A stretch of 64,000 nucleotides of DNA, taken from contig NC_088300.1 of assembly GCF_032854445.1 (NCBI RefSeq), positions 55,774,984 through 55,838,983 of the forward strand, written 5' to 3'. The notes under the pieces are model-generated. The model was not told where the DNA came from, made no database searches, and saw nothing but the letters and a program-made list of their open reading frames with translations. Below are positions 14,333-39,590 of this stretch, piece after piece (within the stretch, counting starts at the first letter, position 1; every line of letters starts with the position of its first letter). The translations under genes and the position numbers were made by a program. This DNA is from Liolophura sinensis (lineage: Eukaryota > Mollusca > Polyplacophora > Chitonida > Chitonidae).

Positions 14333-14387
<55 letters not shown>
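14333..14387. repeat. (TA)n microsatellite
   Basis: Uninterrupted ta dinucleotide run. Tyr/Ile-repeat reading frames across it are artefacts. Confidence 0.95.
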
Positions 14388-14388
<1 letters not shown>

Positions 14389-14619
14389 GCCATATGCAGG
14401 ACCCTTTGGTATATTGCTATCCAAATAAGGACAATTTACAACATTAAAATTGAAATTATCCCCTTTGTCGTAAAGACGGCGTGAAAGGAGACCTTGTTCG
14501 TCTTTGTACAGATATAGATCCAAATAAGATGTACCATCAGGATTATCTGTTTTCCCTTGTAAACCTAATGAAGGTGGATAGACAGCAACGTCATGGAAGA
14601 AAACGATGCCTTCTACTTA

Positions 14620-14873: not shown

Positions 14874-14879
14874 GTTCTA

Positions 14880-15580: not shown

Positions 15581-15582
15581 GC

Positions 15583-15708
15583 TGTCTACGGATGGTCGAG
15601 AGTTTACTTCGGGCACTGCCCGGTTTCCTCTCACCATAATGCTGCCCACCATCGTATAAGTATTCTTGACTACGCGTAAAACACTCATTAAATAAATAAG
15701 TAAATAAT
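15583..15708 (+). repeat. SINE 3' fragment
   Basis: The series 'cggatggtcg...cactgcccggtttcctctcaccataatgc...atcgtataagtattcttgactacgcgtaaaacac' followed by (aaat)n corresponds to the 3' half of the dominant SINE. Confidence 0.75.
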
Positions 15709-15709
15709 A

Positions 15710-17830
15710 CAATGATGGTTAAATTTACTTGTATATAACCACTCTATCCACTAAATGAGCTGCGTTGTGGTTGATGTATACGTAGCCCTTGATACCACTC
15801 ATGTTACCACATAACACTACTCTAATTGTTACAATTTGCAGTTCCCAGGATTGTCTTGTGTAAATAACAAATTCGTTTTTCAAAAACGGCATTGGAAAAT
15901 TCCATTCACACACGACTATATCTCTAAACTGGCAAATGAGAGCAATAACGAAAACTCCCTTCAGCAATGTATTTGTTACAAGCTGCATGCGTTATCACAG
16001 ATTATGTTAACACAGTTTGTAACAGCTGTATTTTAAAAGCTTATATTTTCCTATTAACCACCATCGCTGATTCAGTCATTTTCGGTTGCTACAAATTTAC
16101 AGTAAACAACACCCCTTAGGACTGTCATTTTAAGCGCAATAATAATTAAATGTTTTAACATGCTACAAAACGCATGAACTGTGTATTAGAGTAAATCCAA
16201 ATGTAACAAATACATTGACAAGGGCTCATTTTATCAGCGTTCAACTTTATCACCTTAGATCGGTGTAAATACTCCACTAAGTTTACAGATTTCAGTTTAA
16301 AGATATTTATTTGTTTATCTGATAGGTGTTTTGCGTCATTTTTAAAAACAGTTTGAACATATGTACATATTTTGATGAATATTTATGCCACTCAGAGTTG
16401 CTAGTGGTAGCAGTTGCAATTTACAATGATTTATTACAAAAAAGAAACACTCTGAGGATGTCTTTTTTGTAATAATCATTACTAATTGCGTATTTATAAC
16501 AAGTTGCGTTGCATGCATCATGAGAATAACTGTCTGGGTAGGAAAATTCTGCCAAAAGGCGAGAAATGTGCTTTATATGAAACAAGAACATGTTTTACAG
16601 AAGAGGGGTATGCTTGCATGTGTATTTCTTATTATCCTATATTCATACAGTAATTTAATGAAATAGAAGAGTAACATAATTCCATAGAGAGAACTTAAGC
16701 TTCCTGCATGGTTAACACAATCATCCTCTGTCGTGTAAAGCGTTAATATAAGTGTGATCTACATTGACCTGTTTGTACTTCACCCAGTCTGAATATTTGG
16801 TTCCAATCGACTAATGGTTATATGTGCGCAGTATACATTTAGCGCTGTTTTGCTGTCTGAATACATAAGTACGTGAGAGGAAATGCAACGATGCAAATAC
16901 AGGTATGCAAATGTATACTCTATAGTGAATATGGAGCCAGAAATATAGTGTAATTACACATTTACCATAACGGGTCAGCGACTAAAGTGTACTAATGCGA
17001 TTTTTCGCAGACACATACGTCAAATTATGCGAGTAAATATTTGACAGAAAACAGCTTTGGTTGCCGAGGATACTCCATATAAACAATGCATCAAAATCAG
17101 TCATCAATATAAGGGCTGAATTCTCGGCAAGGCCACGTTTTCTCGGGCAGTGTGTAGAAAGGGGGATAACTGTTGTGGGAAGAAAGCTGATTAGTGGTAA
17201 TACCTGGGATAAATATAACATTTATTAGTCCCAGGTTATACCAAATAGCCTTGTAAGCTACATTGTGAAAGCGGGAATGAATGCCCTATGGTCGGTCCAG
17301 AGCTAAATAACCAAATCACAACGAAGTGTCTTTATAAGCCAATTATCACACTGTCGTCGCTGCTCTGGTTTTACTATCTATCTATGATCTTTTATTATCT
17401 AAGATACAGGTATGGGTAAAGGTCAACATGTGGTCAACTGTCGTCATATTTCAGCATATTTAATGTGCGTATACTAAAATATCATGTCAGACACCCCAGG
17501 CAGTCACCCACCCAGCCGCAGGAGACTAACATAAGCCCACCCCACCTTTCCCTCGCTCCGCCATAGAACCTCCATATGCACATTTGGAGACATGACAAGT
17601 TGAGGCGACGAAGAGAGCTAAAATAAGAGCTGGAAACCATTGAGCCTTTTGGGTGTGATGAACGAGCTTTAATTACCAGTAAAACCTAGGTACCCGGTAT
17701 TATGATGAAAAAATATTTCATTTACTCAAACATATACTATTCTTGCAGCACTTTCTTTATTTACTGGATTGGTGCTTAGCGCAATATCAACAACAAGCAT
17801 CACAGTCATCCGATATTTGTATTGCTAATA
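15710..17830. other. Intergenic DNA with one small hairpin
   Basis: No gene recognised. Near 16423-16478 'gatttattacaaaaaag' and 'cttttttgtaataatc' form an inverted repeat around a ~20-base loop, probably the remains of a small MITE. Confidence 0.45.
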
Positions 17831-17835
17831 TAGCA

Positions 17836-18620
17836 CCTCATGTCTTATTGTGGCCCAGTATAGGCCTGAATTCTTTACTTATAGTCCTCATGGATGTGGC
17901 ACAATCCCCTGATATTTCTATTTTAATATAGCGCCGCATTTTTGATCTGGTCCAGTATACGTTATACATAGTCGGCATAGAGGTGACACAGTCCTCTGAT
18001 ATTTCTATTCTAATATAGCACCGCATTTTTGATCTGATCCAGTAAACGTTATACATAGTCGGCATAGATGTGGCACATCCCTCTGATATTTCTACTGTAA
18101 TATAGCACCGCATGTTTGATCTGATCCAGTATACCTTATACATAGTCGGCATAGATGTGGCACATCCCTCTGATATTTCTACTGTAATATAGCACCGCAT
18201 GTTTGATCTGATCCAGTATACGTTATACATAGTCGGCATAGACGTGGCACATCCCTCTGATATTTCTACTGTAATATAGCACCGCATGTTTGATCTGATC
18301 CAGTAAACGTTATACATAGTCGGCATAGATGTGGCACATCCCTCTGATATTTCTACTGTAATATAGCACCGCATGTTTGATCTGATCCAGTATACCTTAT
18401 ACATAGTCGGCATAGATGTGGCACAGCCCTCTGATATTTTTATTGCTATAATGCACATGTAGCACCTCATTCTTGATCTGGCTCAGTATATGCTATGCAT
18501 ATTCCGCGTAGAAGTGGTACAGTCCTATAATATTTCCATTGCTAATTAATGTAGCACCTCACTCTTTGTCTGGCCCAGTATATGTGACATATAGTCCGCA
18601 CAGAGGTGAATAAATGATGA
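17836..18620. repeat. 87-bp tandem satellite, about 8-9 copies
   Basis: The unit runs from 'ctgatatttctactgtaata' through 'tagcaccgcatgtttgatct', 'gatccagtata' and 'catagtcggcatagatgtgg'. It repeats every 87 bp with high identity in the centre and decay at both ends. As 87 is a multiple of 3, a 210-codon open frame with a 29-residue repeat survives on the minus strand (18470-17838). I regard it as a by-product of the repeat. Confidence 0.9.
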
Positions 18621-18629
18621 TGGGTTAAC

Positions 18630-19835
18630 GCCATATCGGCCATATTTAAGCCACACCCTGGTGAGCAGAGAGGTGAAACAGTCGTCTGATATTCCTAATG
18701 TCAATGTAGCACTTCATCCTTGATCTTATCAAGCACGAAGATGTCATACATAATCAAGGTACAGCTCAAAGTTCACAGGCGGCTGATATTTCTACTTTTT
18801 AAATTGCGCCTCATTATTGGATATTCTATTACCCTTCTGTTCCTTTTTATTACATACAACGCACCGCTTGGCATTGTGCCAAGTACACATTATATGAGTC
18901 GTTAGATACTCCGATCACGAGACAGAAGCGTTTGACTTCTGGACGGGTCTGTTGTAGCTCTATGGTGGATATACGGACCTGATAATTCTTCCTGCGAGCC
19001 TTTCTTTCAGCGGCCTCTCCTAAACGTCCCAGTTGACCACAAACCATGGTATGGCAATCAACCAATGGGTCACAAAACGATCGGATCCATAATGTCTGAT
19101 ATTTCCCGCGGTGCAAAACTTTGCCGCTGGTACACTGCGTCCGGGCAACGACAGCCACAGTTCTTGCTGATGCCGGGGTTTCTGTGATGGACGTTATGTC
19201 TGTGACAGGCCACCGCAATAAGGCCATCCATTGTATTTCACAATACTATAAACGCATATCATATCTATCCTCATGATACCTTGAACATATAAATTATAAT
19301 TTTTTTCTTACTTATAATAAGCATAAAACACATATGAAGTGAACATATCTATGATGCTGTTATTGTTTTCTTATTTATCAACATATGTTGAGAAATTCAC
19401 ATTGAATTGAAAATGTGAACTGAAGTGTTCCATTATTTCAACATTCGTTACCCAGTGTTTATGAATTTGATACAGAATACAACACGACCGCAAAGCATTT
19501 ACACAAGCAAACCAAATAAAATTCAGTATCAAACTATTGTTAACCTAATTTTGTTTGTTTCAATTATTTTTTTTTTCGTACGTAAGTCAAACTTTAATTA
19601 AGTTTAAACAGTTGAACTCCCCACTTTTGTTATCATTTTGCTGATACCAGAGGTTTCCAGCTCCTCTAGCTCTGTCAGACAGAGTTTGGGAAATCCTTTG
19701 ACCTGCCCGAACTCTCGCTGCCAGCAACGGCTCACTGTCAGTGTGGTCACTGTTTGACACCGTGTTTATATCACCGAAGCCTACCCTGATAACAACGTCT
19801 TAGCTGAAAGCAGGAAAATATAGTGCCATATTTTA
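18630..19835. other. Intergenic DNA with one unassigned open frame
   Basis: A 125-codon ATG-initiated minus-strand frame (19227-18850) has no recognised domain. It contains an Arg/Lys-rich stretch and several Cys. I cannot tell whether it is real. Confidence 0.35.
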
Positions 19836-19839
19836 TAGC

Positions 19840-19926
19840 TCCGCCTTCGACCTAAAATATAAACTCTTCCACATCGATCTGATGTAAAACTACCGTTAGA
19901 CTACCCTGACGCGAACATTATTTCTT
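19840..19926. mobile_element. Solo arm of the 14620-14873 foldback family
   Basis: Carries the same series as the right arm of the element at 14785-14873: ccgccttcgacctaaaatat, then catcgatctgatgtaaaact, then accctgacgcgaacattatt, ending in tctt. No second arm is present nearby. Confidence 0.85.
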
Positions 19927-20222
19927 AATTAGTATAGTTTTCTTCCCTCATAATTAACCTATAATCTACTTAAATGACCTTCATGAACTGAGAAATATTA
20001 CGGAGGAAAAAGCCAAAACAATAGAAACAATAAGCCTAATGATTCATGGTGCGTATAGGTCAGATCATAGTTTTATATCTTATCTTAACTGTCCAGGCCA
20101 TTGGCATAGGGGGTCGGGGAGTGCATGTCACATGTGTCAGACTGTTTAGCTGATTCACGATGTCTGCTATCTGGGAAATTAGTGTGCTATGTTATAAACT
20201 TGTGACCACTGAGGTTTGTCAG

Positions 20223-20487
20223 GGGCCTCCGTGGCTCAGTTGGTTAGCGCTGTAGCGCAACCTAATGACCCAGGAGTCTCTCACCAATGCGGTCGTTGTG
20301 AGTTCAAGTTCGGCTCATGCTGGCTGGCTCTCCGGCCTTACGTGGGAAGGTCTGCCAGCAACCTGCGGATGGTCGTGGGTTTCCCCTGGGCTCTGCCCGC
20401 TTTTCACTCACAATAATACTGGCCTCCATCGTATAAGTGAAATATTCTTGAGTACGGCGTAAAACACCAATCAAATAAATAAATAAA
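20223..20487 (+). mobile_element. tRNA-derived SINE, near full length
   Basis: Starts with a tRNA-like head, 'ggcctccgtggctcagttgg' then 'ttagcgctgtagcgcaac' (A box), followed by 'gcggtcgttgtgagttcaag' (B box). Then comes a conserved body, 'tacgtgggaaggtctgccag' and 'ctgcggatggtcgtgggttt', and the tail 'gtataagtgaaatattcttgagtacggcg' ending in (aaat)n. It is the best preserved copy of the dominant SINE in this window. Confidence 0.88.
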
Positions 20488-20494
20488 CTGAGGT

Positions 20495-20690
20495 TTGTCA
20501 AATCAGGTCAAAGGTTCGAATCCAGCCCTGGCTTGTTCGGCTGAGGTTTTTCGTCAGCTGGCAAGGACTTGTGCATGGTTTATCATGGTCGATCGGCCTA
20601 CGTTTGCTCCACCCACAAACGTTACCCTCATTAACACATACTAGATGCTAATTATACATGATAAAATAAACATTAATTTAAAAGAAATGT
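20495..20690 (+). repeat. tRNA-like SINE fragment of a second type
   Basis: Contains the B-box-like 'aaaggttcgaatccagccct' followed by 'ggcttgttcggctgagg'. It directly follows the SINE at 20223-20487. The tail is unclear. Confidence 0.45.
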
Positions 20691-21090
20691 ACTGACGGGA
20701 AGGCATACAATAGGCCTATCATCTGTTAATTAAATAAATGATCTTTCGTTCTCTTCGTCAAATAGTACGTATATGCAAATGTTGTATACGGTATATTAGT
20801 TTTTATTTTTTTGTCCTGTTATAATATGCATAAAAATATAAAGAATATCAGTGGTATCTTCCATTACAATGAAAAACGTTCAGTTGCAAGTGTAAACTGC
20901 GTAATCCGTTGTCCGCATGCATATTCACTTGTGCTTACATCTTGACATTGTGGTGTGGTGATCAACACAAATGAAGTAATATGAGCCTTATACGTGCTCA
21001 ACCATTGCTGATGTCTTCAGCATGGTATTCCAGTGAAGCAGCACTATGCTTGCATATATGTCATCATTGACACGTCGATTTGTGGCAAGG

Positions 21091-21097
21091 GTATAAA
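21091..21097 (+). promoter_or_regulatory. Candidate TATA box upstream of GULO exons
   Basis: The sequence gtataaag is followed about 45 bp later by a CRE-like gtgacgtta, and at 21149 by an ATG. It lies about 1.4 kb upstream of the first recognised GULO exon and inside the duplicated unit (second copy near 28349). It could be the GULO promoter. Inferred from motif only. Confidence 0.3.
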
Positions 21098-21148
21098 GCC
21101 ATACCACCGAAACAATCACAATACCGAGTGACGTTACGAACAAACACA

Positions 21149-21364
21149 ATGTATCCGGTTTCATGTTTACACGTTTTATATGGTTTCTATTTACGCGTTA
21201 TCTGCCTTGTGTCTACGCATTCGATTTCGGAACAGTCAGACGAAGACGTTCCAGCCTGTGTTACACGTGACAAACTAGGTGAACATTTCTACCACTATGA
21301 GGAGTTCGGAATACAGCCACCATGTGGTCAGGCCCTGACAAAGGTCGGAGGGTTTATAAACTGA
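21149..21364 (+). CDS. Unassigned small open frame with signal-peptide-like N-terminus
   Basis: ATG at 21149 (cacaATGTATCC) opens 71 codons, ending in TGA at 21364. The first ~25 residues are hydrophobic and signal-like (MYPVSCLHVLYGFYLRVICL). The remainder is acidic with two Cys. A TATA-like element lies about 50 bp upstream. No family is recognised. It could be a small secreted protein, the 5' exon of GULO, or chance. An identical copy lies in the second duplicate at about 28407-28622. Confidence 0.25.
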   Translation: MYPVSCLHVLYGFYLRVICLVSTHSISEQSDEDVPACVTRDKLGEHFYHYEEFGIQPPCGQALTKVGGFIN

Positions 21365-22049
21365 CGGTTTCAGCTTTTTCTGCGTATTCACTCCGTGGGC
21401 AGTCGAACTCAAACATGGCACTGGATCCAAGGGTACGTATATCAACAGTTGTTTGATTCGATCAAGCTGAACGGGGAAACGTACATGTTATATATAATAG
21501 ACACAGATTGTAATGTTTACGCCCTCACTAGCCAAGGCCTACATGCAGCTATGTCTGCATGCAAGGGCTGCATACGAAGTGCACATAAACACGCGTATAT
21601 ATAAGTATACAAGACTCGTTCACACGGGCAGTTCGTTGCTGCAATTCAGTTCATCCAAAAAGCCGGCTACTTAGAGTGGTCGAGCGGGTAGGCAGACTAT
21701 ATAGTATGTATGTAGGCCTAAGCAGGCATGCTTATATCTAGACGAGTTATTACCCACATGCTCCAGTGGGTCCAGTGTGAACACTCCAGGTATAGCCGGT
21801 GATTAGCATTTCTCCCTACACCGTTTTGCCTCTCGCTATATATAGTACCGTATTTCACCAGCAGGTCTTTTGACAAGACCTGATAATATCATATAAGTGC
21901 ATCACTTTATGCACACCATTTGAGCCTAAAAACACTTATGTGCATCTTACGTTTTACAGTGTAATATTATCCTTGTCGACATATTGATTAAAGCGTCACT
22001 CTCGAAACAGTCTGTCTGCCCTTGACCATATGTGTGGTCTGCGCTAAGC

Positions 22050-22202
22050 CAGATCCCGGTGCTTCTGCTGCTGGGTGTAGTCTGGGGGTTTGTTCCGTAT
22101 ACCCTCGGAATTAAGGGCAACGATTTGCTCCACACTTAAACCGGAAACATTCTTAATTACGGCATTAAACCATAAGCAAATGAATAAATAAGTAAATAAT
22201 AG
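22050..22202 (+). repeat. SINE 3' fragment
   Basis: The tail 'ggaaacattcttaattacgg' then 'cattaaaccataagcaaatgaataaataagtaaata' has the layout of the window's SINE 3' ends, with diverged body sequence. A duplicate lies at 29308-29460. Confidence 0.5.
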
Positions 22203-22661
22203 CAAAAATCCAGGGAGGTAACAAAGCAGATCTGTTTATATATGTAATCATCTGTGTTAGAACATTTGTCATGGCCGTGCCATGGGCGGTGGCTTACTCT
22301 AGGCCCTTATTTAACCTCCCCTCATCACCCTCTACCCATAAACCGTACAACCGCCATGTATTTGTGAAAAATTCTAGAGCACAACATTAAATACTAATCT
22401 GCTATATAATAAGTCATTTCCTTCCTTGGCTTTGTATTATGTTAGTATCATGTTCAGGATGTTTTATAATTTTATTTCTCGATCTTGCAGGCTTTGGGAG
22501 GCAAGTCGGGGCATAACTTTGCCAACTGGGCGAAGACGTACACGTGTCAGCCAGAGGCTTATTTTGAGCCCAAGACTACAGATGAAATGAGAGAAGTAAG
22601 TATAGATAAGCTCAAATAACAGTGCGTCATACAAATGAGATTATTATATAACCTTGGACTG

Positions 22662-22662
<1 letters not shown>

Positions 22663-22733
<71 letters not shown>
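22663..22733. repeat. (TA)n microsatellite, 71 bp
   Basis: Pure ta run in the first GULO intron. Its equivalent in copy 2 (29921-29989) is 69 bp. This is the only difference I noticed between the two 7.26-kb copies. Confidence 0.95.
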
Positions 22734-22736
<3 letters not shown>

Positions 22737-23705
22737 TGCACAGGCATATTTATGGGGCTTTGGTCACGTCTTGAAGCGAGAAAGAAGATTAGGATTTCAT
22801 GGAACGCTTGAAAAGAAATGCGCAGAGGGAATGGAATGCCCATTGCATGGCGCAATTTGCCAATTATCAATTTGCAAAAATAGGAAGAAGAAGACCCCCA
22901 TGGGCTGGTACTCAACAAATAATCGTTAAAGCTGACGTCTGCATATTATGTAATCAGACCACGTGCCTCCCGAACGAGGTTGTCACGTTACTTTCGAGCC
23001 CAAGTTACACAGTGATATACATGTACTTTAGAATCACAACAGACCCAGATACTGGACAAGGAAGGATAGCCCTTTATCAGTCTGAACACAGACTGCACAT
23101 CGGCTTACTACAATTTAAAACCTTTTCACGTAAGATTTCAAGTGTTATCACCTGACAAGTCGCTAGTTATATCTGCGTCGCAGACTTTGTCAGGGCAGAT
23201 CATACAATGATACATACCATTTGGCAAGAGCTTTATAGTGATGGAACAAGGCTTCAGCTAAGCCTAGCCAGCATTAATGCTCCATCCATTGTAAGCCTAC
23301 AGACAGATTTTTTTTATAACACCTTATGGTGTACACAATTATAACTGTACAAAATGAAATCTCTGGGGTTCAGTTAACAAAGGTGTAAGCGAATTTAGTT
23401 AACTTGATTAACGATGAACACAAAGGGAAAATTATACCTATGCTCACCGAAATTAATTAATGTTTTTCAGAGTGTAATTATGATTCAAACGCAGTTTTTA
23501 TGAAAGCATTTTGAAAGCTCTATATCTTTCAGACATATTTAACCATCATGCTACATCCGATTCAAAGTAACGACGAAGTTGATAAGCGTGCAGTATAGGT
23601 TTTAGAGGGGTTAGACGAGGTATTGTTCGAACATTTGGTTGAGCGGAAGTAGGTGGTGCTTCATGCTTGTTACTGTTGCGCATGTCTGGTCGATAGCAAA
23701 ACGAT

Positions 23706-23749
23706 TACAATGTAATTAAAGACGATTTCTCGTCTTTAATTACATTGTA
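23706..23749. repeat. Perfect 20-bp hairpin
   Basis: The arm tacaatgtaattaaagacga is followed by the loop tttc and its exact reverse complement. It lies in the GULO intron between exons 1 and 2. It recurs in copy 2 at about 30962-31005. Confidence 0.9.
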
Positions 23750-25579
23750 GGCCCTATTCCTGCATAAGCCAGGATTTTTCTGGTGGACTAAGCATCCTCG
23801 AGGACCTTTGTATTGTTTTAATGTGATTGTATGTTAAATGTGATGATAACACAGCATTTTTAGTATAATTCTAGACCAGTGACGTCTAATGTATTGCAAT
23901 TAACATCATCGCATTTCTTTTTTAACGTAATCCTGCCAAAGCTGCTACTATATATGTATTTACATCAATAGTTAGAATAAAACCCTGACTGAGATACCCT
24001 TTATTGACAAGAGGCCGTATTTCACCGGTTACTTGTGAAAATTTGCCAGCTGTCATACTGTAGCTGCTGTGTCTGGTTTTACTCTCTATGCTGTAGGTCT
24101 ACATAAAGTCTACACTGTATATACATAGAAAAAAAAATGATATTGGACAATTATCACAGAAAAATATGTAAAAATTTCTGTAACGTTTTGAAAGTTGAGA
24201 AGATGAAGTTCGGCATTGGGGATATGGCACTGACGGACAATTCACTCCCAGTATTGATGTTGTAAAAACCCTTATGAACTTGGCCAATCACTAGCCCTGA
24301 AAGCGTCACGTGACAATTGGCTATCAGGTCAAAAAAAAACTATTAGCCGTCGATTGTCAGTGAGGTTTCTTATTGTGGATAGACAGACATCGGTGCAATA
24401 AATTGGATTTTGCGATTAGTTCGTGAAACTGATGCATTTTTGAACCACACATTTATGAGCAGGGAACTGAGAACGGCAGTCTGTGTCACAATGCGTACAT
24501 GTTGGACAGGATACTGGAGTAACTTGTCAGAAAGAGCTGGCAAGAAAGCAGCATCGGGAGAGTCATTGCTTGTAGAAAAATATTGTGACTTTGCATTATT
24601 TTTCTTTAGCAAAGTCAGATTGATGACGAAAATATGTTCCAAAAATCAGAATGAAAGGGTCTGTGATCAATCAGAAGGTTCTGCTATGTTCGGTGAATTA
24701 CCTGAAGTGGGCACAGTCAGCTAGGCCAAATGCTTACACCCATGCAGGACGAAGACTAGCAGGACCGTTAAAACACGATGCTTGGGTCCATGAACATCAC
24801 ACTGACCGAGCGCCAAACTCGAAGAAACATCGGCCCTGTGAACATGAAACAGAGTCGATGCTCTTTGGTTGGGTGTTCGTTTGTATTTTCTCATTGTCAC
24901 ATTGTTTAATACTGATGGTACGGAAGAGCTCCAAGTTTTTTTTTGACGTCGCTGTAGATAGCTATAACATGACCGAATGGCGTCGCCAAATGAGTGGCTA
25001 GGTACAGACTGTTGTTTGCTATTTATTTTGTTGATAAGCGGTGTAGATTTTTTCAAATATCTTAGAACATATCTGGAATACTATTTTATTAATTACTTCA
25101 GCTTTAGTGGCTGACTTTATGTTCATTTTATGTTCAGAAGCTAGTGTGATCCATGATAGGATATACATCACTTGATGCAGATACTATCCTGGTCTGCCGA
25201 TAATCACTATTTTTCTCTCCAATGTGATTCGTGTATAATCTCAGCTATACGTATTGTTTTATATTCTAATACAAAATTCTACATCACAGATTCTGTCATG
25301 CGCCCAGCAGAGAGGGAAGAAGGTTAAGGTTGTGGGGTGTGGTCATTCGCCGTCTGATCTGGCCTGTACAACAGATTACATGATCTGTCTGAGACATTAC
25401 AACAGACTTCTAAAGGTGAGCCAGCGTTAGGTTATGTATATGGGATTAGGGTTAAGGTCGTAGTTAACATTTAGCCGTATGACGACGAGGAGTCATTAGG
25501 TGCATGTGTGTACAGAAATTATTTCTTCTCGTAGCCGATCGAATCCACATTATTTTTTGTGCGTGGTAAAGTTAAACGT

Positions 25580-25770
25580 AACGTATCAAATGCGGATTTT
25601 TTGTCCTGGTGACAGAATCCGTACCGCTAATCGTCATGTTTATACTGAAAGAAATATCCCGATTCGGGTTTGAACGCAGGCCTCCGCAAACGTGGCGGAT
25701 ACTCTTGCCTCTCAGCCACGGTAGTGCGGTCGACGCGTTTATAGACGAGAAAATGTCGAGGAATCTCGCC
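25580..25770 (-). repeat. Possible minus-strand tRNA-derived repeat
   Basis: The stretch 'gattcgggtttgaacgcagg' then 'cctctcagccacggtagtgc' reads on the minus strand as an A-box/B-box tRNA-like head. A family-C-like block, 'gacgacgaggagtcattaggtg', lies just upstream at 25478. It is in a GULO intron. The duplicate is at about 32836-33026. Confidence 0.5.
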
Positions 25771-26289
25771 ATATAAAATATAACACCTTGTGCACGACAA
25801 CCGGCTGTACGTATAGAGTATTCTTATAAAAATTTGTTATTGACACAGTACTAGTATATACGAGTTTCACTGAACATTGCAAATACAGAACAATTTGAGA
25901 TATATTTGATTTAATTTGATTGGTATTTTAGGCCATACTCAGTTTTGAGACATAATCAAATACTGGACAATAACACTTGTGCTCTGTTATGTCAAGATCA
26001 TCATGGCCGTTGTAACAGTATAACTTGTTGAATACAGCTGTTGTTTTGTTTAAGTTATGCAAATCTGCATGACATCTGATTGGGTTTTCTGTTTCCCACA
26101 ATTCTCACCGCAGGTGGACAAGGAGCGGTCTCAGGTGAAGGTAGAAGGAGGGATGCTTGTCAGAGATCTCAACGATTCCGTCCTCAATCCTAACGGCCTA
26201 GCACTGAGCGTGTAAGTATCGCCATGGTCTGGTATTGTGCTGTAAAATGACCTCACAGAACTCTACCTGGTCTCATACACTATTAATTT

Positions 26290-26475
26290 GTATTCTGCTA
26301 TTGCAACAGATTATTCTATTAAATAATATACACATATTCTATCAATTCAACATGTTCTATGAGACTAAAAGGAAATTATGTTAAATATGACACAGTATTA
26401 TGTTATAATAACAGAATACATTCAAGCATCACTCAGACAACAGACTTTCTGTTCAGATTAACAGATTAATAGTGT
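26290..26475. mobile_element. MITE related to 7147-7376, in a GULO intron
   Basis: The right end 'agaatacattcaagcatcac' then 'tcagacaacagactttctgtt' matches the right end of the foldback element at 7330-7370. The left half is more diverged. The duplicate copy is at about 33546-33731. Confidence 0.65.
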
Positions 26476-26984
26476 ATAGTGTATTAAGAGATTAATTTCT
26501 TGAGTGTATCCGATTAGGATCACAGCAGTAGGGTATGGACTTTAGAACCCTACTGTCTACAAACGAATGGAGACAACAAAATTGTGTGACAAGATAATGT
26601 TGGCAGTTAGGGGATTTTGCTAACGTTTTACTCATGGTTGTATTACTTCTGTCAGCATTACCATTTAATTATGCAGACGAGGATTTATTAATTGATGTGT
26701 TCACTATGTAATTAGATTAGGATTTAATCTACAATTGGGATTACTGAGACAACTAGAGCTCCTGTAGTTCGCTGTATACCAGAGAAATGCCCCATTAACT
26801 TCAGAGTAATTATTTTAGGTGGAGAGCTAAAAACCTTATTTATACAGTAGAACAAGACCGCCTGAGGGTCATCAAGTTAGCGTATGTGTATTGTAGGTCA
26901 AGTCTGTGAACTGAAAGCCTAACTCATGATATAATGTGAACAATTGGATCTTTTTAAACCGAGATATCTACTTGTATCTATGTT

Positions 26985-27660
26985 TAGTTATTGATTGATT
27001 TGATTGATTGATTTTATTAGCCTTGCAATAAAAAACGTATACATTGGATTTTAAGACATCAACAAAATACAGACACAACGTGATAACAATAAAGTCTGGA
27101 AAGATACATGGTGGGAATAAAGCTCAGGTTGAGCTTGTTCTATTCCACGTGTAAGTAATAACAGAATTGCAGGGGTGAGACTGACATTTTAGTTTGTGTC
27201 TAAATATTTTTTTTCTAAATATATATGTATTTATTTTACTTCAACTATGCCTTAACTGTGTAATGTTAGAATGAAGATTGCAGCTTAGAAAGTAGAAAAT
27301 TTTTAATAAAGATTGAAAGTGCGATTTAGATGAAACTGATCTTAGTGTTAATGGAAGGTTATTCCATTCCCTAGAACCAGAAGTTCTGAAGAAATAATAT
27401 GATAGATTTGTATTATACAGTGGTTTGTGGAAGGCTAGATCGGTATCTCACGTGTGATATGGATTTTAAATTTCTTGTTTGATTAAATAGGGCTTTAAAC
27501 TTACAGGAATAATGTCTATGGAATGAAAGTAAATACGAGTTTGTAATAGAGTAGAAAATAGAGATAGTTCGGCAAGGGGTAAGATTTTCAGTTGGCACAA
27601 AAGCGGTTGGGTACGGCAAAGAAGGCCTGATAAAGTAATTGTTGTAATTGCCCTTGAAAT
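26985..27660 (-). mobile_element. 3' end of a non-LTR retrotransposon (LINE)
   Basis: On the minus strand the frame near 27420-27270 reads [18 protein letters not shown] then [17 protein letters not shown]. This is the WN.LP...F...L pattern typical of the extreme C-terminus of jockey/CR1-type reverse transcriptase ORFs. The element ends at about 26985-27015 in a (tca a)n-type simple tail, as LINE 3' ends often do. Frameshifts are present upstream. It lies in the GULO intron between exons 3 and 4. The duplicate is at about 34241-34916. Confidence 0.65.
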
Positions 27661-28318
27661 GTGGCTTAGGCCATGATTCAGTATTTCTTTGTGTTGCAGA
27701 TTAGGTTCCATCTCTGATATTTCCATAGCTGGCACGATCTCTACAGGCACTCATGGCACGGGGGAACGATACGGGACGTTATCCTCATATGTAAGAAAAT
27801 GTAGCTAACACATACCCACAAAGGATATCCTATATCGTTTGCCTTCGCACTTAATGGAATGCCTTACATTAAACCCCGCGCGGGACAAAATGCTACCGGA
27901 CCTAACGGGGAAAATCAAAATTTAAGCATTCTTAACTGCAAATTTTGATACATCAATAAGTTTCCAGAAACTTGTAAATACCAGATCAGAACCAAGGAAA
28001 CTAGCGTGCCGAAACGCCGATACATGTGCGTAGTAAAGATCGTCGTGTGCAGATTGGGTTCCGAAATCGGCAGAACTACATACTGACGTCAGTGATAGTT
28101 CACATCATGTGAAGTTTGTGTACATGGGAATCCAATGTACATAGCCTACAATAATACATTGTCACCACTTCATGTCAGTTCCGTAGACGACTATGCTGGA
28201 CAGAGTATATTTGCTGATAATACCTTAAACGTTTGACTATACAACATCATATTTATGTTTTCATGATCAGATTGTTGAGCTAGAGCTGTTGACGGCGTCG
28301 GGTGAGATACTGGAGATA

Positions 28319-29919
28319 TCATCATTGACACGTCGATTTGTGGCAAGGGTATAAAGCCATACCACCGAAACAATCACAATACCGAGTGACGTTACGAACA
28401 AACACAATGTATCCGGTTTCATGTTTACACGTTTTATATGGTTTCTATTTACGCGTTATCTGCCTTGTGTCTACGCATTCGATTTCGGAACAGTCAGACG
28501 AAGACGTTCCAGCCTGTGTTACACGTGACAAACTAGGTGAACATTTCTACCACTATGAGGAGTTCGGAATACAGCCACCATGTGGTCAGGCCCTGACAAA
28601 GGTCGGAGGGTTTATAAACTGACGGTTTCAGCTTTTTCTGCGTATTCACTCCGTGGGCAGTCGAACTCAAACATGGCACTGGATCCAAGGGTACGTATAT
28701 CAACAGTTGTTTGATTCGATCAAGCTGAACGGGGAAACGTACATGTTATATATAATAGACACAGATTGTAATGTTTACGCCCTCACTAGCCAAGGCCTAC
28801 ATGCAGCTATGTCTGCATGCAAGGGCTGCATACGAAGTGCACATAAACACGCGTATATATAAGTATACAAGACTCGTTCACACGGGCAGTTCGTTGCTGC
28901 AATTCAGTTCATCCAAAAAGCCGGCTACTTAGAGTGGTCGAGCGGGTAGGCAGACTATATAGTATGTATGTAGGCCTAAGCAGGCATGCTTATATCTAGA
29001 CGAGTTATTACCCACATGCTCCAGTGGGTCCAGTGTGAACACTCCAGGTATAGCCGGTGATTAGCATTTCTCCCTACACCGTTTTGCCTCTCGCTATATA
29101 TAGTACCGTATTTCACCAGCAGGTCTTTTGACAAGACCTGATAATATCATATAAGTGCATCACTTTATGCACACCATTTGAGCCTAAAAACACTTATGTG
29201 CATCTTACGTTTTACAGTGTAATATTATCCTTGTCGACATATTGATTAAAGCGTCACTCTCGAAACAGTCTGTCTGCCCTTGACCATATGTGTGGTCTGC
29301 GCTAAGCCAGATCCCGGTGCTTCTGCTGCTGGGTGTAGTCTGGGGGTTTGTTCCGTATACCCTCGGAATTAAGGGCAACGATTTGCTCCACACTTAAACC
29401 GGAAACATTCTTAATTACGGCATTAAACCATAAGCAAATGAATAAATAAGTAAATAATAGCAAAAATCCAGGGAGGTAACAAAGCAGATCTGTTTATATA
29501 TGTAATCATCTGTGTTAGAACATTTGTCATGGCCGTGCCATGGGCGGTGGCTTACTCTAGGCCCTTATTTAACCTCCCCTCATCACCCTCTACCCATAAA
29601 CCGTACAACCGCCATGTATTTGTGAAAAATTCTAGAGCACAACATTAAATACTAATCTGCTATATAATAAGTCATTTCCTTCCTTGGCTTTGTATTATGT
29701 TAGTATCATGTTCAGGATGTTTTATAATTTTATTTCTCGATCTTGCAGGCTTTGGGAGGCAAGTCGGGGCATAACTTTGCCAACTGGGCGAAGACGTACA
29801 CGTGTCAGCCAGAGGCTTATTTTGAGCCCAAGACTACAGATGAAATGAGAGAAGTAAGTATAGATAAGCTCAAATAACAGTGCGTCATACAAATGAGATT
29901 ATTATATAACCTTGGACTG

Positions 29920-29992
<73 letters not shown>

Positions 29993-32900
29993 TGCACAGG
30001 CATATTTATGGGGCTTTGGTCACGTCTTGAAGCGAGAAAGAAGATTAGGATTTCATGGAACGCTTGAAAAGAAATGCGCAGAGGGAATGGAATGCCCATT
30101 GCATGGCGCAATTTGCCAATTATCAATTTGCAAAAATAGGAAGAAGAAGACCCCCATGGGCTGGTACTCAACAAATAATCGTTAAAGCTGACGTCTGCAT
30201 ATTATGTAATCAGACCACGTGCCTCCCGAACGAGGTTGTCACGTTACTTTCGAGCCCAAGTTACACAGTGATATACATGTACTTTAGAATCACAACAGAC
30301 CCAGATACTGGACAAGGAAGGATAGCCCTTTATCAGTCTGAACACAGACTGCACATCGGCTTACTACAATTTAAAACCTTTTCACGTAAGATTTCAAGTG
30401 TTATCACCTGACAAGTCGCTAGTTATATCTGCGTCGCAGACTTTGTCAGGGCAGATCATACAATGATACATACCATTTGGCAAGAGCTTTATAGTGATGG
30501 AACAAGGCTTCAGCTAAGCCTAGCCAGCATTAATGCTCCATCCATTGTAAGCCTACAGACAGATTTTTTTTATAACACCTTATGGTGTACACAATTATAA
30601 CTGTACAAAATGAAATCTCTGGGGTTCAGTTAACAAAGGTGTAAGCGAATTTAGTTAACTTGATTAACGATGAACACAAAGGGAAAATTATACCTATGCT
30701 CACCGAAATTAATTAATGTTTTTCAGAGTGTAATTATGATTCAAACGCAGTTTTTATGAAAGCATTTTGAAAGCTCTATATCTTTCAGACATATTTAACC
30801 ATCATGCTACATCCGATTCAAAGTAACGACGAAGTTGATAAGCGTGCAGTATAGGTTTTAGAGGGGTTAGACGAGGTATTGTTCGAACATTTGGTTGAGC
30901 GGAAGTAGGTGGTGCTTCATGCTTGTTACTGTTGCGCATGTCTGGTCGATAGCAAAACGATTACAATGTAATTAAAGACGATTTCTCGTCTTTAATTACA
31001 TTGTAGGCCCTATTCCTGCATAAGCCAGGATTTTTCTGGTGGACTAAGCATCCTCGAGGACCTTTGTATTGTTTTAATGTGATTGTATGTTAAATGTGAT
31101 GATAACACAGCATTTTTAGTATAATTCTAGACCAGTGACGTCTAATGTATTGCAATTAACATCATCGCATTTCTTTTTTAACGTAATCCTGCCAAAGCTG
31201 CTACTATATATGTATTTACATCAATAGTTAGAATAAAACCCTGACTGAGATACCCTTTATTGACAAGAGGCCGTATTTCACCGGTTACTTGTGAAAATTT
31301 GCCAGCTGTCATACTGTAGCTGCTGTGTCTGGTTTTACTCTCTATGCTGTAGGTCTACATAAAGTCTACACTGTATATACATAGAAAAAAAAATGATATT
31401 GGACAATTATCACAGAAAAATATGTAAAAATTTCTGTAACGTTTTGAAAGTTGAGAAGATGAAGTTCGGCATTGGGGATATGGCACTGACGGACAATTCA
31501 CTCCCAGTATTGATGTTGTAAAAACCCTTATGAACTTGGCCAATCACTAGCCCTGAAAGCGTCACGTGACAATTGGCTATCAGGTCAAAAAAAAACTATT
31601 AGCCGTCGATTGTCAGTGAGGTTTCTTATTGTGGATAGACAGACATCGGTGCAATAAATTGGATTTTGCGATTAGTTCGTGAAACTGATGCATTTTTGAA
31701 CCACACATTTATGAGCAGGGAACTGAGAACGGCAGTCTGTGTCACAATGCGTACATGTTGGACAGGATACTGGAGTAACTTGTCAGAAAGAGCTGGCAAG
31801 AAAGCAGCATCGGGAGAGTCATTGCTTGTAGAAAAATATTGTGACTTTGCATTATTTTTCTTTAGCAAAGTCAGATTGATGACGAAAATATGTTCCAAAA
31901 ATCAGAATGAAAGGGTCTGTGATCAATCAGAAGGTTCTGCTATGTTCGGTGAATTACCTGAAGTGGGCACAGTCAGCTAGGCCAAATGCTTACACCCATG
32001 CAGGACGAAGACTAGCAGGACCGTTAAAACACGATGCTTGGGTCCATGAACATCACACTGACCGAGCGCCAAACTCGAAGAAACATCGGCCCTGTGAACA
32101 TGAAACAGAGTCGATGCTCTTTGGTTGGGTGTTCGTTTGTATTTTCTCATTGTCACATTGTTTAATACTGATGGTACGGAAGAGCTCCAAGTTTTTTTTT
32201 GACGTCGCTGTAGATAGCTATAACATGACCGAATGGCGTCGCCAAATGAGTGGCTAGGTACAGACTGTTGTTTGCTATTTATTTTGTTGATAAGCGGTGT
32301 AGATTTTTTCAAATATCTTAGAACATATCTGGAATACTATTTTATTAATTACTTCAGCTTTAGTGGCTGACTTTATGTTCATTTTATGTTCAGAAGCTAG
32401 TGTGATCCATGATAGGATATACATCACTTGATGCAGATACTATCCTGGTCTGCCGATAATCACTATTTTTCTCTCCAATGTGATTCGTGTATAATCTCAG
32501 CTATACGTATTGTTTTATATTCTAATACAAAATTCTACATCACAGATTCTGTCATGCGCCCAGCAGAGAGGGAAGAAGGTTAAGGTTGTGGGGTGTGGTC
32601 ATTCGCCGTCTGATCTGGCCTGTACAACAGATTACATGATCTGTCTGAGACATTACAACAGACTTCTAAAGGTGAGCCAGCGTTAGGTTATGTATATGGG
32701 ATTAGGGTTAAGGTCGTAGTTAACATTTAGCCGTATGACGACGAGGAGTCATTAGGTGCATGTGTGTACAGAAATTATTTCTTCTCGTAGCCGATCGAAT
32801 CCACATTATTTTTTGTGCGTGGTAAAGTTAAACGTAACGTATCAAATGCGGATTTTTTGTCCTGGTGACAGAATCCGTACCGCTAATCGTCATGTTTATA

Positions 32901-35574
32901 CTGAAAGAAATATCCCGATTCGGGTTTGAACGCAGGCCTCCGCAAACGTGGCGGATACTCTTGCCTCTCAGCCACGGTAGTGCGGTCGACGCGTTTATAG
33001 ACGAGAAAATGTCGAGGAATCTCGCCATATAAAATATAACACCTTGTGCACGACAACCGGCTGTACGTATAGAGTATTCTTATAAAAATTTGTTATTGAC
33101 ACAGTACTAGTATATACGAGTTTCACTGAACATTGCAAATACAGAACAATTTGAGATATATTTGATTTAATTTGATTGGTATTTTAGGCCATACTCAGTT
33201 TTGAGACATAATCAAATACTGGACAATAACACTTGTGCTCTGTTATGTCAAGATCATCATGGCCGTTGTAACAGTATAACTTGTTGAATACAGCTGTTGT
33301 TTTGTTTAAGTTATGCAAATCTGCATGACATCTGATTGGGTTTTCTGTTTCCCACAATTCTCACCGCAGGTGGACAAGGAGCGGTCTCAGGTGAAGGTAG
33401 AAGGAGGGATGCTTGTCAGAGATCTCAACGATTCCGTCCTCAATCCTAACGGCCTAGCACTGAGCGTGTAAGTATCGCCATGGTCTGGTATTGTGCTGTA
33501 AAATGACCTCACAGAACTCTACCTGGTCTCATACACTATTAATTTGTATTCTGCTATTGCAACAGATTATTCTATTAAATAATATACACATATTCTATCA
33601 ATTCAACATGTTCTATGAGACTAAAAGGAAATTATGTTAAATATGACACAGTATTATGTTATAATAACAGAATACATTCAAGCATCACTCAGACAACAGA
33701 CTTTCTGTTCAGATTAACAGATTAATAGTGTATAGTGTATTAAGAGATTAATTTCTTGAGTGTATCCGATTAGGATCACAGCAGTAGGGTATGGACTTTA
33801 GAACCCTACTGTCTACAAACGAATGGAGACAACAAAATTGTGTGACAAGATAATGTTGGCAGTTAGGGGATTTTGCTAACGTTTTACTCATGGTTGTATT
33901 ACTTCTGTCAGCATTACCATTTAATTATGCAGACGAGGATTTATTAATTGATGTGTTCACTATGTAATTAGATTAGGATTTAATCTACAATTGGGATTAC
34001 TGAGACAACTAGAGCTCCTGTAGTTCGCTGTATACCAGAGAAATGCCCCATTAACTTCAGAGTAATTATTTTAGGTGGAGAGCTAAAAACCTTATTTATA
34101 CAGTAGAACAAGACCGCCTGAGGGTCATCAAGTTAGCGTATGTGTATTGTAGGTCAAGTCTGTGAACTGAAAGCCTAACTCATGATATAATGTGAACAAT
34201 TGGATCTTTTTAAACCGAGATATCTACTTGTATCTATGTTTAGTTATTGATTGATTTGATTGATTGATTTTATTAGCCTTGCAATAAAAAACGTATACAT
34301 TGGATTTTAAGACATCAACAAAATACAGACACAACGTGATAACAATAAAGTCTGGAAAGATACATGGTGGGAATAAAGCTCAGGTTGAGCTTGTTCTATT
34401 CCACGTGTAAGTAATAACAGAATTGCAGGGGTGAGACTGACATTTTAGTTTGTGTCTAAATATTTTTTTTCTAAATATATATGTATTTATTTTACTTCAA
34501 CTATGCCTTAACTGTGTAATGTTAGAATGAAGATTGCAGCTTAGAAAGTAGAAAATTTTTAATAAAGATTGAAAGTGCGATTTAGATGAAACTGATCTTA
34601 GTGTTAATGGAAGGTTATTCCATTCCCTAGAACCAGAAGTTCTGAAGAAATAATATGATAGATTTGTATTATACAGTGGTTTGTGGAAGGCTAGATCGGT
34701 ATCTCACGTGTGATATGGATTTTAAATTTCTTGTTTGATTAAATAGGGCTTTAAACTTACAGGAATAATGTCTATGGAATGAAAGTAAATACGAGTTTGT
34801 AATAGAGTAGAAAATAGAGATAGTTCGGCAAGGGGTAAGATTTTCAGTTGGCACAAAAGCGGTTGGGTACGGCAAAGAAGGCCTGATAAAGTAATTGTTG
34901 TAATTGCCCTTGAAATGTGGCTTAGGCCATGATTCAGTATTTCTTTGTGTTGCAGATTAGGTTCCATCTCTGATATTTCCATAGCTGGCACGATCTCTAC
35001 AGGCACTCATGGCACGGGGGAACGATACGGGACGTTATCCTCATATGTAAGAAAATGTAGCTAACACATACCCACAAAGGATATCCTATATCGTTTGCCT
35101 TCGCACTTAATGGAATGCCTTACATTAAACCCCGCGCGGGACAAAATGCTACCGGACCTAACGGGGAAAATCAAAATTTAAGCATTCTTAACTGCAAATT
35201 TTGATACATCAATAAGTTTCCAGAAACTTGTAAATACCAGATCAGAACCAAGGAAACTAGCGTGCCGAAACGCCGATACATGTGCGTAGTAAAGATCGTC
35301 GTGTGCAGATTGGGTTCCGAAATCGGCAGAACTACATACTGACGTCAGTGATAGTTCACATCATGTGAAGTTTGTGTACATGGGAATCCAATGTACATAG
35401 CCTACAATAATACATTGTCACCACTTCATGTCAGTTCCGTAGACGACTATGCTGGACAGAGTATATTTGCTGATAATACCTTAAACGTTTGACTATACAA
35501 CATCATATTTATGTTTTCATGATCAGATTGTTGAGCTAGAGCTGTTGACGGCGTCGGGTGAGATACTGGAGATA
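28319..35574 (+). repeat. 7.26-kb direct tandem duplication, copy 2
   Basis: Begins at tcatcattgacacgtcg, fused directly to the broken fifth GULO exon of copy 1. It runs 7256 bp to actggagata (35574), after which the fifth exon continues normally (agtgcagacaag). No microhomology is seen at the junction: the bases flanking the outer ends (tatatg on the left, agtgca on the right) do not match across it. Confidence 0.97.
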
Positions 35575-38500
35575 AGTGCAGACAAGAACCCAGAATTACT
35601 TCCGGCCGTGCGCTGTTCTCTAGGGTGTCTGGGCATCATACTGAATGTGACCATACAATGCGAGCCCGCCTTCAGACTCCACCAGAAAACATACCCCAGT
35701 AAACTTAATGATGTAAGTTCTGCATGCAGCATTGTGTAACAAGTCTATATCATGTAGTATTTCAAAGCATCGTCATCTTTTTTCCCGCCCGAGGATTCAC
35801 AGTAGTTTCTTGAAAACTTGGAACTGCTATAACCTTACAAACATCTTTTAATTCAGTAGCAGCTTAAAAAGGACATTTCACAACGCATTTTTCCAAGACA
35901 TCAGTCCAGACATGCCATGCAGGTCAACCGTATGATGACCTAAGAAGTGATCAAATCTGTTACGCTAATCGATGTTACGTTTTCGGAGTTACTAGTTCAT
36001 CAGTTAATAGCCAAATGTCCTCTAAGTTGCTATCACATTATTGTGTGTCCTATAATTCCCCAATACGCACTTCCTAACTAGCTGCCAGTCACACTGACTT
36101 AACGCACGAAGATTTTAGGGAACCACCCAGTGATCTCTTATCTCCTAACTCCTGATACGTCCTATGGCTAAAATGTTCTGGCAACTTTCCCTTCCTGTTC
36201 AGATACTGGAGAACCTGCAGGTGCATGTGTCCGCCTCCGACCATTTCCGCTTCCTGTGGTTCCCACACACAGAGGATGTGGTTGTGTCCCACGTCAACAG
36301 AACATCCAAGGTAACACTGCAAAGCAGAGGTAACGTGCGCAAGCCAGTGGCACACGGTGGCTAGTTCATAGGGAAGAGGGACACAAAGCGATTGTAGGCA
36401 AAGTTGATTGTAACTACCATGACTTCATCTTTTAACATGTCTTGCCATTGTAGTTACAATCAGCTTACAGCCCACAAGCACTTTGCGCCTACAGCTGCTG
36501 GTGTCGGCAGTGAATTTTGTCGTCTTTCTTCATCAGCTATAACAATTGTGTACCTTTCGCAACACATAGACTAGCCAGTAAACCGAACAAATACAAAGGC
36601 GTAAATACACCTACTGGATAATTGCGCTGAAAAAGGTACAGATATTGGCGTCCCAGAAACACTGGAAAGCCTGTGAAGCTAGGTATGATATGTTTGCATG
36701 TTCGTATGTAAGTATATATGCTTAGGGTTTTACGTCTTATAAAATTTTCAGTTATACGGCGACGAGGAGTCATTAGGTGTGTGTACATCACATACGGTGT
36801 CTTCGTGTTCATGCCGCTATAGTGCAGCCGTACCTGAAGTATCATTCCGAAGACATTAGACAGGACACCCCATTTTCCTTGCTCTAACCTCTCAGAGCTG
36901 AGCACCAAGCGAGGCGGCAATAAGTGCCATATTTTCCTTGCTTTGACCCAAGCCGGGTTTGAACCCCGGTCTCCCGACTTATGAATCTATATTGAAAGAC
37001 AACTCTTTGGTGTGTGTTTGATTACAGGACATTTGTAACAAGTCCAGCTGGTTCTGGGATTACGGTATTGGTTACTACCTGCTGGAGTTCTGTCTCTGGA
37101 TCAGGTAACACTTCTAGTTATTACATAATATCAACATGAACATCTTCTGTTCCCTCCACCGATAAGATTGAAGTGAACATTTCTTGAGTATGGTGTTAAA
37201 CAACAATTAGATAAATAAATCTACTAATTATATTAACAACGCGAATATCAATATCTCAACCACCATTGTTCAGCATATGTTTCAGACATTAGTGCTTTTT
37301 GGATTGTTCTTGCGCGATTCTCTTAATGTAAGATATTTCCGAGGGCCTCTAATACCAGTTTCGCACCTGCACCACATGGAGTACAACTGTTTGTAATGTA
37401 CCTGCCAAAGGGCTGTGGTTTCTCCGCCCGTAAATTGCCGTAATAGGAGTGACAAGAAGTCTTGGAATTGCAAGAAATTGTAGAAACTCGGATGTAATCT
37501 GTACCTTATCATGGTAAAACCAAATACCAAGTTTGAAATCAGAATAACTAACAGTTTGAAGACGAAAGAAAACGAAAACGGCCATAATTTTACCGTAAAC
37601 CAAATCTCTCGTGGATATCGGTATAGGGGACTAACACATAAAACATAAGTGATTTACTTTTCCAAATGTGAAGGATCCCTACACGTGGTCTCTTTGCAGC
37701 ACATTCTTTCCTAGGATTGTACCAACCATAAACCGTCTGTTCTTCAAACATCTCCATTCTCAAGTCCGAGAGAAGGTGGACAGGAGTGACGTCATCTTTA
37801 ACTTCGAGTGCCTGTTCAAGCAGTACGTTATGGAATGGGCCATCCCAAGGTACAGTACACAACAAATACTTCAACTTTTACAACTGATGGTGTGTGATTA
37901 TCTCAGCAATGTCCTACATTTCAACATATTTTCGTACTTATCGTGCTGTCATACATTCAGGTCAGTCCTCGGGCTGTTGTGCCTGGCCGTTGTATTACAT
38001 CATAAACTCAACCATTTCATAGTGAAACATTGGAAAAAAACATGCACTACATCTGCCACTCATAAATTATTGGATTGTTCCGAAAACGAATGCCAACTAT
38101 GTGAATTATCTTTTTGTCTCACTTCTTCATCATCCAGACATGCTACTGCCTGGGTATTGAAGGAACTGAAGGCGTGGATAGAAAACGTGAACTACCCGGC
38201 TCATTTACCCATAGAGGTTCGCTTTGTTCAACAGGACGACATTTACCTGAGTCCTGCGTACGGTCAGGAATCCTGTTATATTAACATCATCATGTACAGG
38301 TGATAAGAGCCCTCCCTTCTCATCTGAAATAACATTCTTATTTAACAGGCTGTGAATGTGACCTCCAACCCGCTTCTCAAAAAAAATGCTGGTTCAGAAA
38401 TGGCTGTAATTGTATGTGGTAGCACATTGGGCAAAAATAGCTTGTGAATGAATCCCACCACCCTGTTTCTTGAGAAAGGAAAAAAAAATACTGGTTTAAA

Positions 38501-39590
38501 AATTAGTTTTCTGTATATACATTGTATCTGATGACACAATGGGCTATTGATGGTTTTCATGATGCTGCAACTACTATAAACAGTTTCTGTACGGCGCTAA
38601 AAAACAAAGATGTATTCCTAACATGGTTTTTATTATGTAGACCTTACGGGAAGTTGGTGCCCACTGATAAATACTGGGATGCCTTTGAGAATATTGTGAA
38701 CAAAGTTGGAGGAAGACCTCACTGGGCAAAGGTGGGTTGACCACAGTGGAGTAGTACTCTTTTCATACATATAAACATTGTGGCCCTGGCAAATCAACCA
38801 ATAGTACTTTTGCTTTAAATGACAAGAATGAATACATCATATGTAGAAGGCTTTCGGTAGGTGAATTTTTTTATTTTACTTGGGCTTCCTGTTAACGGTA
38901 AACGGAGGTCCAAAAGATTCAAAATTTTCAGTTTATCACGTGATAAGTTTTGACCATCGTATTTTTTGACCATAGTCATTTTATGAGCGTGGGGCCAAAG
39001 TGCAAAAGTTGTAATTCCATTGTTCCCCATCATGAAGAGCGCTTTATAGTGATACGAGACAATCCGCTGTGACTATAGCTACAGGCGCCCGAATCCAGCC
39101 CGTAAACCCTATATATGCCACATACATATATATATATATATATGTGTGTGTGTGGGGGGGGCCTCCGTGGCTCAGTTGGTTAGCGACCATTGCGGTCGCT
39201 GTGAGTTCAAGTACAGCTCATGCTGGCTTCCTCTCCCGTCGTACGTGGGAAGGTCCTTCAGCAATCTGCGGATGGTCGTGGGTTTCTCCCGGGCTCTGCC
39301 CGGTTTCCATCCACTATAATGATGGCCGCCATGGTATAAGTGAAATATTCTTGAGTACGGCGTAAAACACCAATCAAAGAAATAAATAAATTTTATATGT
39401 AGGTGGCTGGTATATGGCATGTATAGGATTAACTTAGCTTTGTGTTTGTTTTCAGGACCACAAAGTGGGACCTCAGAGATTCACTCAGCTCTACCCTCAC
39501 TGGAACACATTCTGTCAGATCAGGAAGAGACTTGATCCAAACGGCATGTTCCTTAACAATTACCTGGAGAGGGTGTTTGGTACAGCATGA
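29749..39590 (+). CDS. GULO: L-gulono-1,4-lactone oxidase (terminal enzyme of vitamin C synthesis)
   Basis: Ten or more exons join in one frame: 29749-29853, 32546-32671, 33370-33467, 34956-35046, 35527-35712, 36203-36310, 37028-37104, 37700-37849, 38138-38299, 38641-38731 and 39456-39590 (TGA). They give about 442 residues, close to the 440 of rat GULO. The start-codon exon was not found and must add a few residues. Visible marks are NFANWAKTY, the FAD-linking His in [104 protein letters not shown] and the HWAK motif of aldonolactone oxidoreductases. The family oxidises L-gulonolactone to ascorbate, using O2, at the ER membrane. The N-terminal half is the VAO-type FAD-binding domain and the C-terminal half the ALO domain. 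The first four exons lie in duplication copy 2. The gene is tail-to-tail with ABCB8. Confidence 0.95.
29921..29989. repeat. (TA)n microsatellite, 69 bp
   Basis: Copy-2 equivalent of the run at 22663-22733, one repeat unit shorter. Confidence 0.95.
36382..36486. repeat. Imperfect inverted repeat (~36-bp arms) in a GULO intron
   Basis: The left arm ends 'gattgtaactac' and the right arm begins 'gtagttacaatc'. Weaker complementarity continues out to 'acaaagcg' and 'cactttg'. It lies in the intron between 36310 and 37028. Probably a small foldback element. Confidence 0.65.
36740..36985 (-). repeat. Dispersed tRNA-derived repeat, family C copy 2
   Basis: Shares 'acggcgacgaggagtcatta', 'gacattagacaggacacccca', 'ctaacctctcagagctgagc' and 'aagcgaggcggcaa' with 10470-10715. 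It ends in 'gggtttgaaccccggtctcc', the reverse complement of a tRNA-type B box. Located in a GULO intron. Confidence 0.75.
37165..37225 (+). repeat. SINE tail fragment
   Basis: The stretch 'gaacatttcttgagtatggtg' then 'ttaaacaacaattagataaataaat' is a diverged copy of the common SINE 3' end, within a GULO intron. Confidence 0.55.
39160..39390 (+). mobile_element. tRNA-derived SINE
   Basis: Same family as 20223-20487: ggcctccgtggctcagttgg head, 'gcggtcgctgtgagttcaag' B box, 'cggatggtcgtgggttt' body and a 'gagtacggcgtaaaacaccaatc' tail ending in (aaat)n. It has lost about 30 bp after the A box. It sits in the last GULO intron, next to a ta/tg microsatellite at 39118-39155. Confidence 0.88.

Follow-up and report, generated by a model that had tools for sequence, protein, structure and literature searches.

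Has the chiton Liolophura sinensis duplicated part of its gene for gulonolactone oxidase (GULO), and what would such a duplication leave of the gene? The question is raised by a window of 64,000 nucleotides (the whole stretch of DNA analysed; assembly GCF_032854445.1, contig NC_088300.1, positions 55,774,984 to 55,838,983), in which an initial annotation described a near-identical 7.26-kb tandem duplication splitting a GULO gene. The source, which that annotation took to be a mollusc, is indeed one, and the species was renamed Liolophura sinensis in a correction (PMC12441733). Judging from the sequence, we consider it quite likely that the repeat is a genuine germline tandem duplication of very recent date, formed by blunt end-joining and still segregating as a polymorphism; it is probably present in the animal's DNA and not just a feature of the assembly.

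Two direct copies of the unit adjoin head to tail (Table 1). Across 7,256 aligned bp they show 0 substitutions, and the alignment has a single 2-bp gap, which is explained by a (TA)n run of 35.5 units in copy 1 and 34.5 units in copy 2. There is 0 bp of microhomology at the junction, the left flank has 0 bp in common with the unit end, and the unit start has 0 bp in common with the right flank; the coordinates of the unit are therefore exact, and both the extent and the one 2-bp difference given in the initial annotation hold. Identity is uniform through introns and mobile elements as far as the blunt unit ends. Exon mapping also agrees that the unit comprises four GULO coding exons, E1-E4, with 140 codons in 420 nt, followed by the first 48 bp of E5. 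The open frames, however, were said to be identical in both copies, and those crossing the (TA)n run are not: the minus-strand frame 22562-22945 of copy 1 is replaced by 29820-30005 and 29923-30201 in copy 2. Apart from the two copies, the longest self-match in the window measures 745 bp and lies inside a minisatellite (blastn, word 28, matches above 100 bp). No repeat comparable to the unit was found in a 200-kb sample of contig C1, where matches of at least 800 bp at more than 85% identity comprised four short-period arrays with periods of ~80-175 bp; gauged from these 200 kb alone, the background rate of repeats is poorly known. Two stretches in the GULO introns, 24101-25139 and 26989-27655 (repeated in copy 2), are interspersed repeats whose long genomic matches elsewhere are 78-89% identical.

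Several points weigh against a real duplication. It is known here from one assembled genome sequence. The assembly was built with hifiasm, purge_dups and YaHS from HiFi reads at a coverage of only 14x and a mean read length of 8,347 bp, which is near the unit length (PMC11068029); reads that cross a whole unit into the flank on either side would therefore be few, and an array of more than two copies could have been collapsed. At the gene level, duplicated BUSCO entries reach 7.4%; the genome-level figure, only 0.9%, counts in favour of a real duplication (PMC11068029). Finally, a non-haplotypic artefact, in which a chimeric or faulty HiFi read or a wrong graph path at low coverage repeated one 7.26-kb stretch and nothing is duplicated in the animal, would also give perfect identity. 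The low coverage and the read length suit such an artefact, a ligation chimera would likewise leave a blunt junction, and homotype false duplications without heterozygous k-mers are described (PMC9516828). A ligation chimera, however, would need two fragments that lie 7 kb apart at one locus to be fused in the same orientation, and with 0 bp homology the junction would be hard to create by a wrong read overlap. False duplications are reported to be mostly gap-separated and to have haploid read depth (PMC9516828), whereas the chiton copies are free of gaps: the window contains 0 N, and a scaffold join was rejected on this ground. The 200-kb sample of C1 has one gap, 200 N long. We regard a non-haplotypic artefact as unlikely.

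The same paper describes the closest parallels. A true allele-specific tandem duplication reported there has both copies in one contig with no gap, as in the chiton, and its read depth was haploid, whereas the chiton case comes from the assembled sequence. The false heterotype and homotype duplications share with the chiton locus near-identical adjacent copies that cut through a gene, and differ from it in that the chiton copies have neither a gap nor haplotypic differences (PMC9516828).

If the duplication is real, two breaks, one ~1.4 kb upstream of GULO E1 and the other inside E5, would have been united by blunt end-joining; end-joining is suggested because the junction is blunt. When the 400-bp stretches around the breakpoints were compared by blastn, no match had an E value better than 0.69. 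Immediately to the left of the left breakpoint there is a short dispersed repeat, with 32 genomic matches listed, two of them at the window locus. This repeat (21000-21073) recurs on contig C8 near 1448817-1449176 with a spacing of ~78 bp. The right breakpoint sits in a coding exon; all genomic matches listed for 27900-28400 fall at the window locus, and since this search revealed no partner of the left repeat at the right breakpoint, no mechanism is drawn from that repeat. At rates of 1e-8 to 1e-9, the absence of substitutions sets an age ceiling of ~21,000 to 207,000 generations. Adding one (TA)n step under a simple stepwise model puts the best age at ~650 to 5,800 generations and the supported range at ~30 to 51,000; these ages depend on assumed mutation rates throughout, and the step itself may be spurious if the length of (TA)35 is in error. 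Tandem copies can homogenise, and identity alone cannot separate age from conversion, so an older duplication whose copies have been kept alike through gene conversion or unequal exchange has also to be weighed. It is very improbable: identity does not fall anywhere in the 7.26 kb, whether in introns, in mobile elements or at the blunt ends, and this would require a recent exchange of the whole unit.

A haplotypic false duplication, with two alleles of one region set side by side, usually appears as near-identical adjacent copies and the heterozygosity of this genome is high (1.24%; PMC11068029), but at that level the haplotypes would differ at ~90 sites and 0 differences are seen (Poisson P(0) ~8e-40), there is no gap between the copies and purge_dups was applied, and this explanation was rejected as scarcely credible. 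An ancient partial genome duplication reported for this chiton was rejected as a cause as well, because it concerns linkage groups and leaves a 7-kb identical repeat unexplained (PMC12005716). The initial annotation had offered a very recent event or an artefact, a choice that is supported; because of the heterozygosity of 1.24%, the gap-free window and the blunt junction, the balance shifts towards a real duplication.

The duplicated gene was recognised by tblastn with a rat GULO protein, which located most exons; E3 came from the open-frame listing, and splice sites were read by eye and then checked by script. Copy 2 together with the tail forms 11 coding exons (E1-E11) with a consistent frame, AG/GT sites and a stop codon, giving 442 codons excluding the start and no in-frame stops. 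The Pfam domains FAD_binding_4 (100.1 bits, cut-off 26.4) and ALO (308.3 bits, cut-off 23.1) were found in the protein, which also scores 492 bits against the sugar 1,4-lactone oxidase model TIGR01678 (cut-off 396.8). E2 contains GCGHSPSD, a match at the sequence level to the stretch of the FAD-linking histidine; we take the GGGHSPSD stretch to be the site of this histidine in GULO. The closest solved structures are L-galactono-1,4-lactone dehydrogenases. In E10 the motif PHWAK is present, and HWAK is reported to mark true animal GULO (PMC6582580). By its two domains, TIGR01678 above cut-off, HWAK and intact frame, the gene is thus an animal GULO, as initially annotated, and shares these features with the animal GULO among the VAO-type aldonolactone oxidoreductases; it differs in the additional tailless 5' head directly upstream.

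Searches of the genome (609,464,459 bases in 632 sequences) scored only the best candidates. At least five PF04030 matches were obtained (three candidates scored), all within the GULO tail at the window locus. The first 1,001 bp of the unit gave two listed matches and 27900-28400 gave three, again all at the window locus. No second GULO and no haplotig elsewhere was found among these best-scoring candidates. A 14,740-bp query was swamped by transposons (43 matches, 39 of 8,755 candidates scored, none at the window locus) and is uninformative on the unique parts.

What does the duplication do to this gene? To call it split is misleading: an uninterrupted GULO remains as copy 2 plus tail, and what has been added is a partial, tailless head upstream. 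The description of two heads in front of one catalytic tail stands, with two sets of E1-E4 and a single GULO tail found in the genome. These heads were also called FAD (flavin adenine dinucleotide)-domain heads, and they are nearly, not fully, that: E1-E4 encode residues 1-140, and the FAD_binding_4 match spans residues 21-157. With the truncated E5, the copy 1 product would extend to residue 156. This exon retains its acceptor and has no donor of its own; its frame runs for 16 codons, then for 11 junction-derived codons to a stop. Cryptic donors within 380 bp score 1.2 and 3.2 by a human matrix, on which the gene's own ten donors score 0.5-6.9. Four polyA-type hexamers occur in the 1.43 kb after the junction, the nearest ~930 bp away, and are not decisive.

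Copy 1 transcripts would thus either end in the truncated E5 or splice E4 into E1 of copy 2, the latter proposed because the truncated E5 lacks a donor of its own. Since both the end of E4 and the start of E1 are in phase 0, this splice would be in frame, adding 420 nt (140 codons) and giving a putative double-headed GULO of 582 residues without the start. Copy 2 with the tail would act as the ordinary GULO gene and copy 1 as a tailless extra head; most likely the net effect is near neutral and vitamin C synthesis is retained via copy 2. It is a long shot that, from the segregating exon block, a double-headed GULO with 140 extra residues is made in frame, either replacing the normal enzyme or accompanying it, and so changes ascorbate output between individuals.

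The first recognised exons are present in the unit as initially described, four in number, but E1 opens at a splice acceptor without an ATG and the start exon was unaccounted for. We lean towards the start exon and promoter lying inside the unit, as a weak prediction; copy 2 may therefore be self-sufficient. When start exons of up to 20 codons are allowed, a candidate at 21415 (MALDPR; donor score 3.2, human matrix) is preceded by TATAAA and has A at -3 and G at +4. Among candidates scoring at least 3 in 5200-22490, it alone combines these features. This combination of TATAAA, start and donor occurs 10 times in 528 kb (both strands of the window and the C1 sample), two of the 10 being 21415 itself and its counterpart in copy 2. 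In 1.43 kb, 0.027 occurrences are expected, or 0.022 excluding its own two sites, by criteria picked post hoc. Other observations speak against this placement. The first coding exon of GULO seems to carry the ATG alone (PMC6582580), and the unit has one ATG|GT, with a poor donor, the best such site being at 20046, outside the unit (score 3.3, human matrix). In addition, four start candidates upstream of the unit outscore 21415 (4.1, 3.9, 3.8 and 3.3). The region 19900-20200, which contains 20046, is single-copy except for ~30-50 bp at one end.

Table 1. Positions in the window of the duplicated unit, the GULO exons and associated features.
Feature	Position	Strand	Remark
Copy 1 of unit	21061..28318	+	7,258 bp; alignment
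Copy 2 of unit	28319..35574	+	7,256 bp; alignment
Junction between copies	28318..28319	.	0 bp microhomology
(TA)35.5, copy 1	22663..22733	.	
(TA)34.5, copy 2	29921..29989	.	
Short dispersed repeat just left of left breakpoint	21000..21048	.	some genomic matches reach ~21073
Candidate coding part of start exon (MALDPR), putative	21415..21432	+	TATAAA at 21355
Candidate start-exon repeat in copy 2	28673..28690	+	
GULO E1, copy 1	22491..22595	+	105 nt, phase 0
GULO E2, copy 1	25290..25415	+	126 nt
GULO E3, copy 1	26114..26211	+	98 nt
GULO E4, copy 1	27700..27790	+	91 nt, ends in phase 0
GULO E5, first 48 bp, truncated at junction	28271..28318	+	frame continues 11 codons to stop
GULO E1, copy 2	29749..29853	+	
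GULO E2, copy 2	32546..32671	+	
GULO E3, copy 2	33370..33467	+	
GULO E4, copy 2	34956..35046	+	
GULO E5, complete	35527..35712	+	186 nt
GULO E6	36203..36310	+	
GULO E7	37028..37104	+	
GULO E8	37700..37849	+	
GULO E9	38138..38299	+	
GULO E10, with HWAK motif	38641..38731	+	
GULO E11, with stop codon	39456..39590	+	

Nine translated frames from the GULO flanks were compared with Pfam; one exceeded the cut-off, one gave a weak integrase match, and the others gave nothing or weak matches below cut-off. The first is a secretin-type seven-transmembrane receptor frame (774-2456, minus strand, opposite to GULO; PF00002, 67.2 bits). A second long frame on the same strand (3865-5148) matches no Pfam family above cut-off and may be part of the receptor gene. 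The weak match is phage-integrase-like (19100-19273, plus strand; PF00589, 19.2 bits, cut-off 27.1) and is perhaps a remnant of a mobile element. Downstream of GULO and convergent with it are two exons of an ATP-binding cassette (ABC) transporter ATPase (42428-42685 and 43634-43846, minus strand), with PF00005 scores of 45.7 bits, over the cut-off of 25, and 24.8 bits, just below it. Minisatellites are located at 52275-53063 (44-bp unit, 17.9 copies) and 17881-18608 (87-bp unit, 6.4 to 7.7 copies by row), and ~254 bp at 14620-14873 match their own reverse complement at 83%. No tRNAs and no Rfam families were detected in the window.

As a probable young partial-gene tandem duplication the event is of an ordinary type, and it is the gene that makes it interesting. 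The loss of GULO has occurred many times among animals (PMC6582580). No paper on GULO tandem or exon duplication was found, judged by titles, nor any literature joining gulonolactone oxidase with chiton. The 2019 survey names Gastropoda, Bivalvia and Cephalopoda among mollusc classes, and the word 'chiton' is absent from its main text (PMC6582580); an apparently intact GULO is here recorded in a chiton. If the repeat is an artefact, it would be a warning that low-coverage HiFi assemblies may contain clean-looking false exon gains. If the duplication is real, a young rearrangement in the only GULO found in this mollusc genome would serve as a natural experiment on how much structural change such a gene can bear, and on whether splicing includes or skips a head duplicated in frame.

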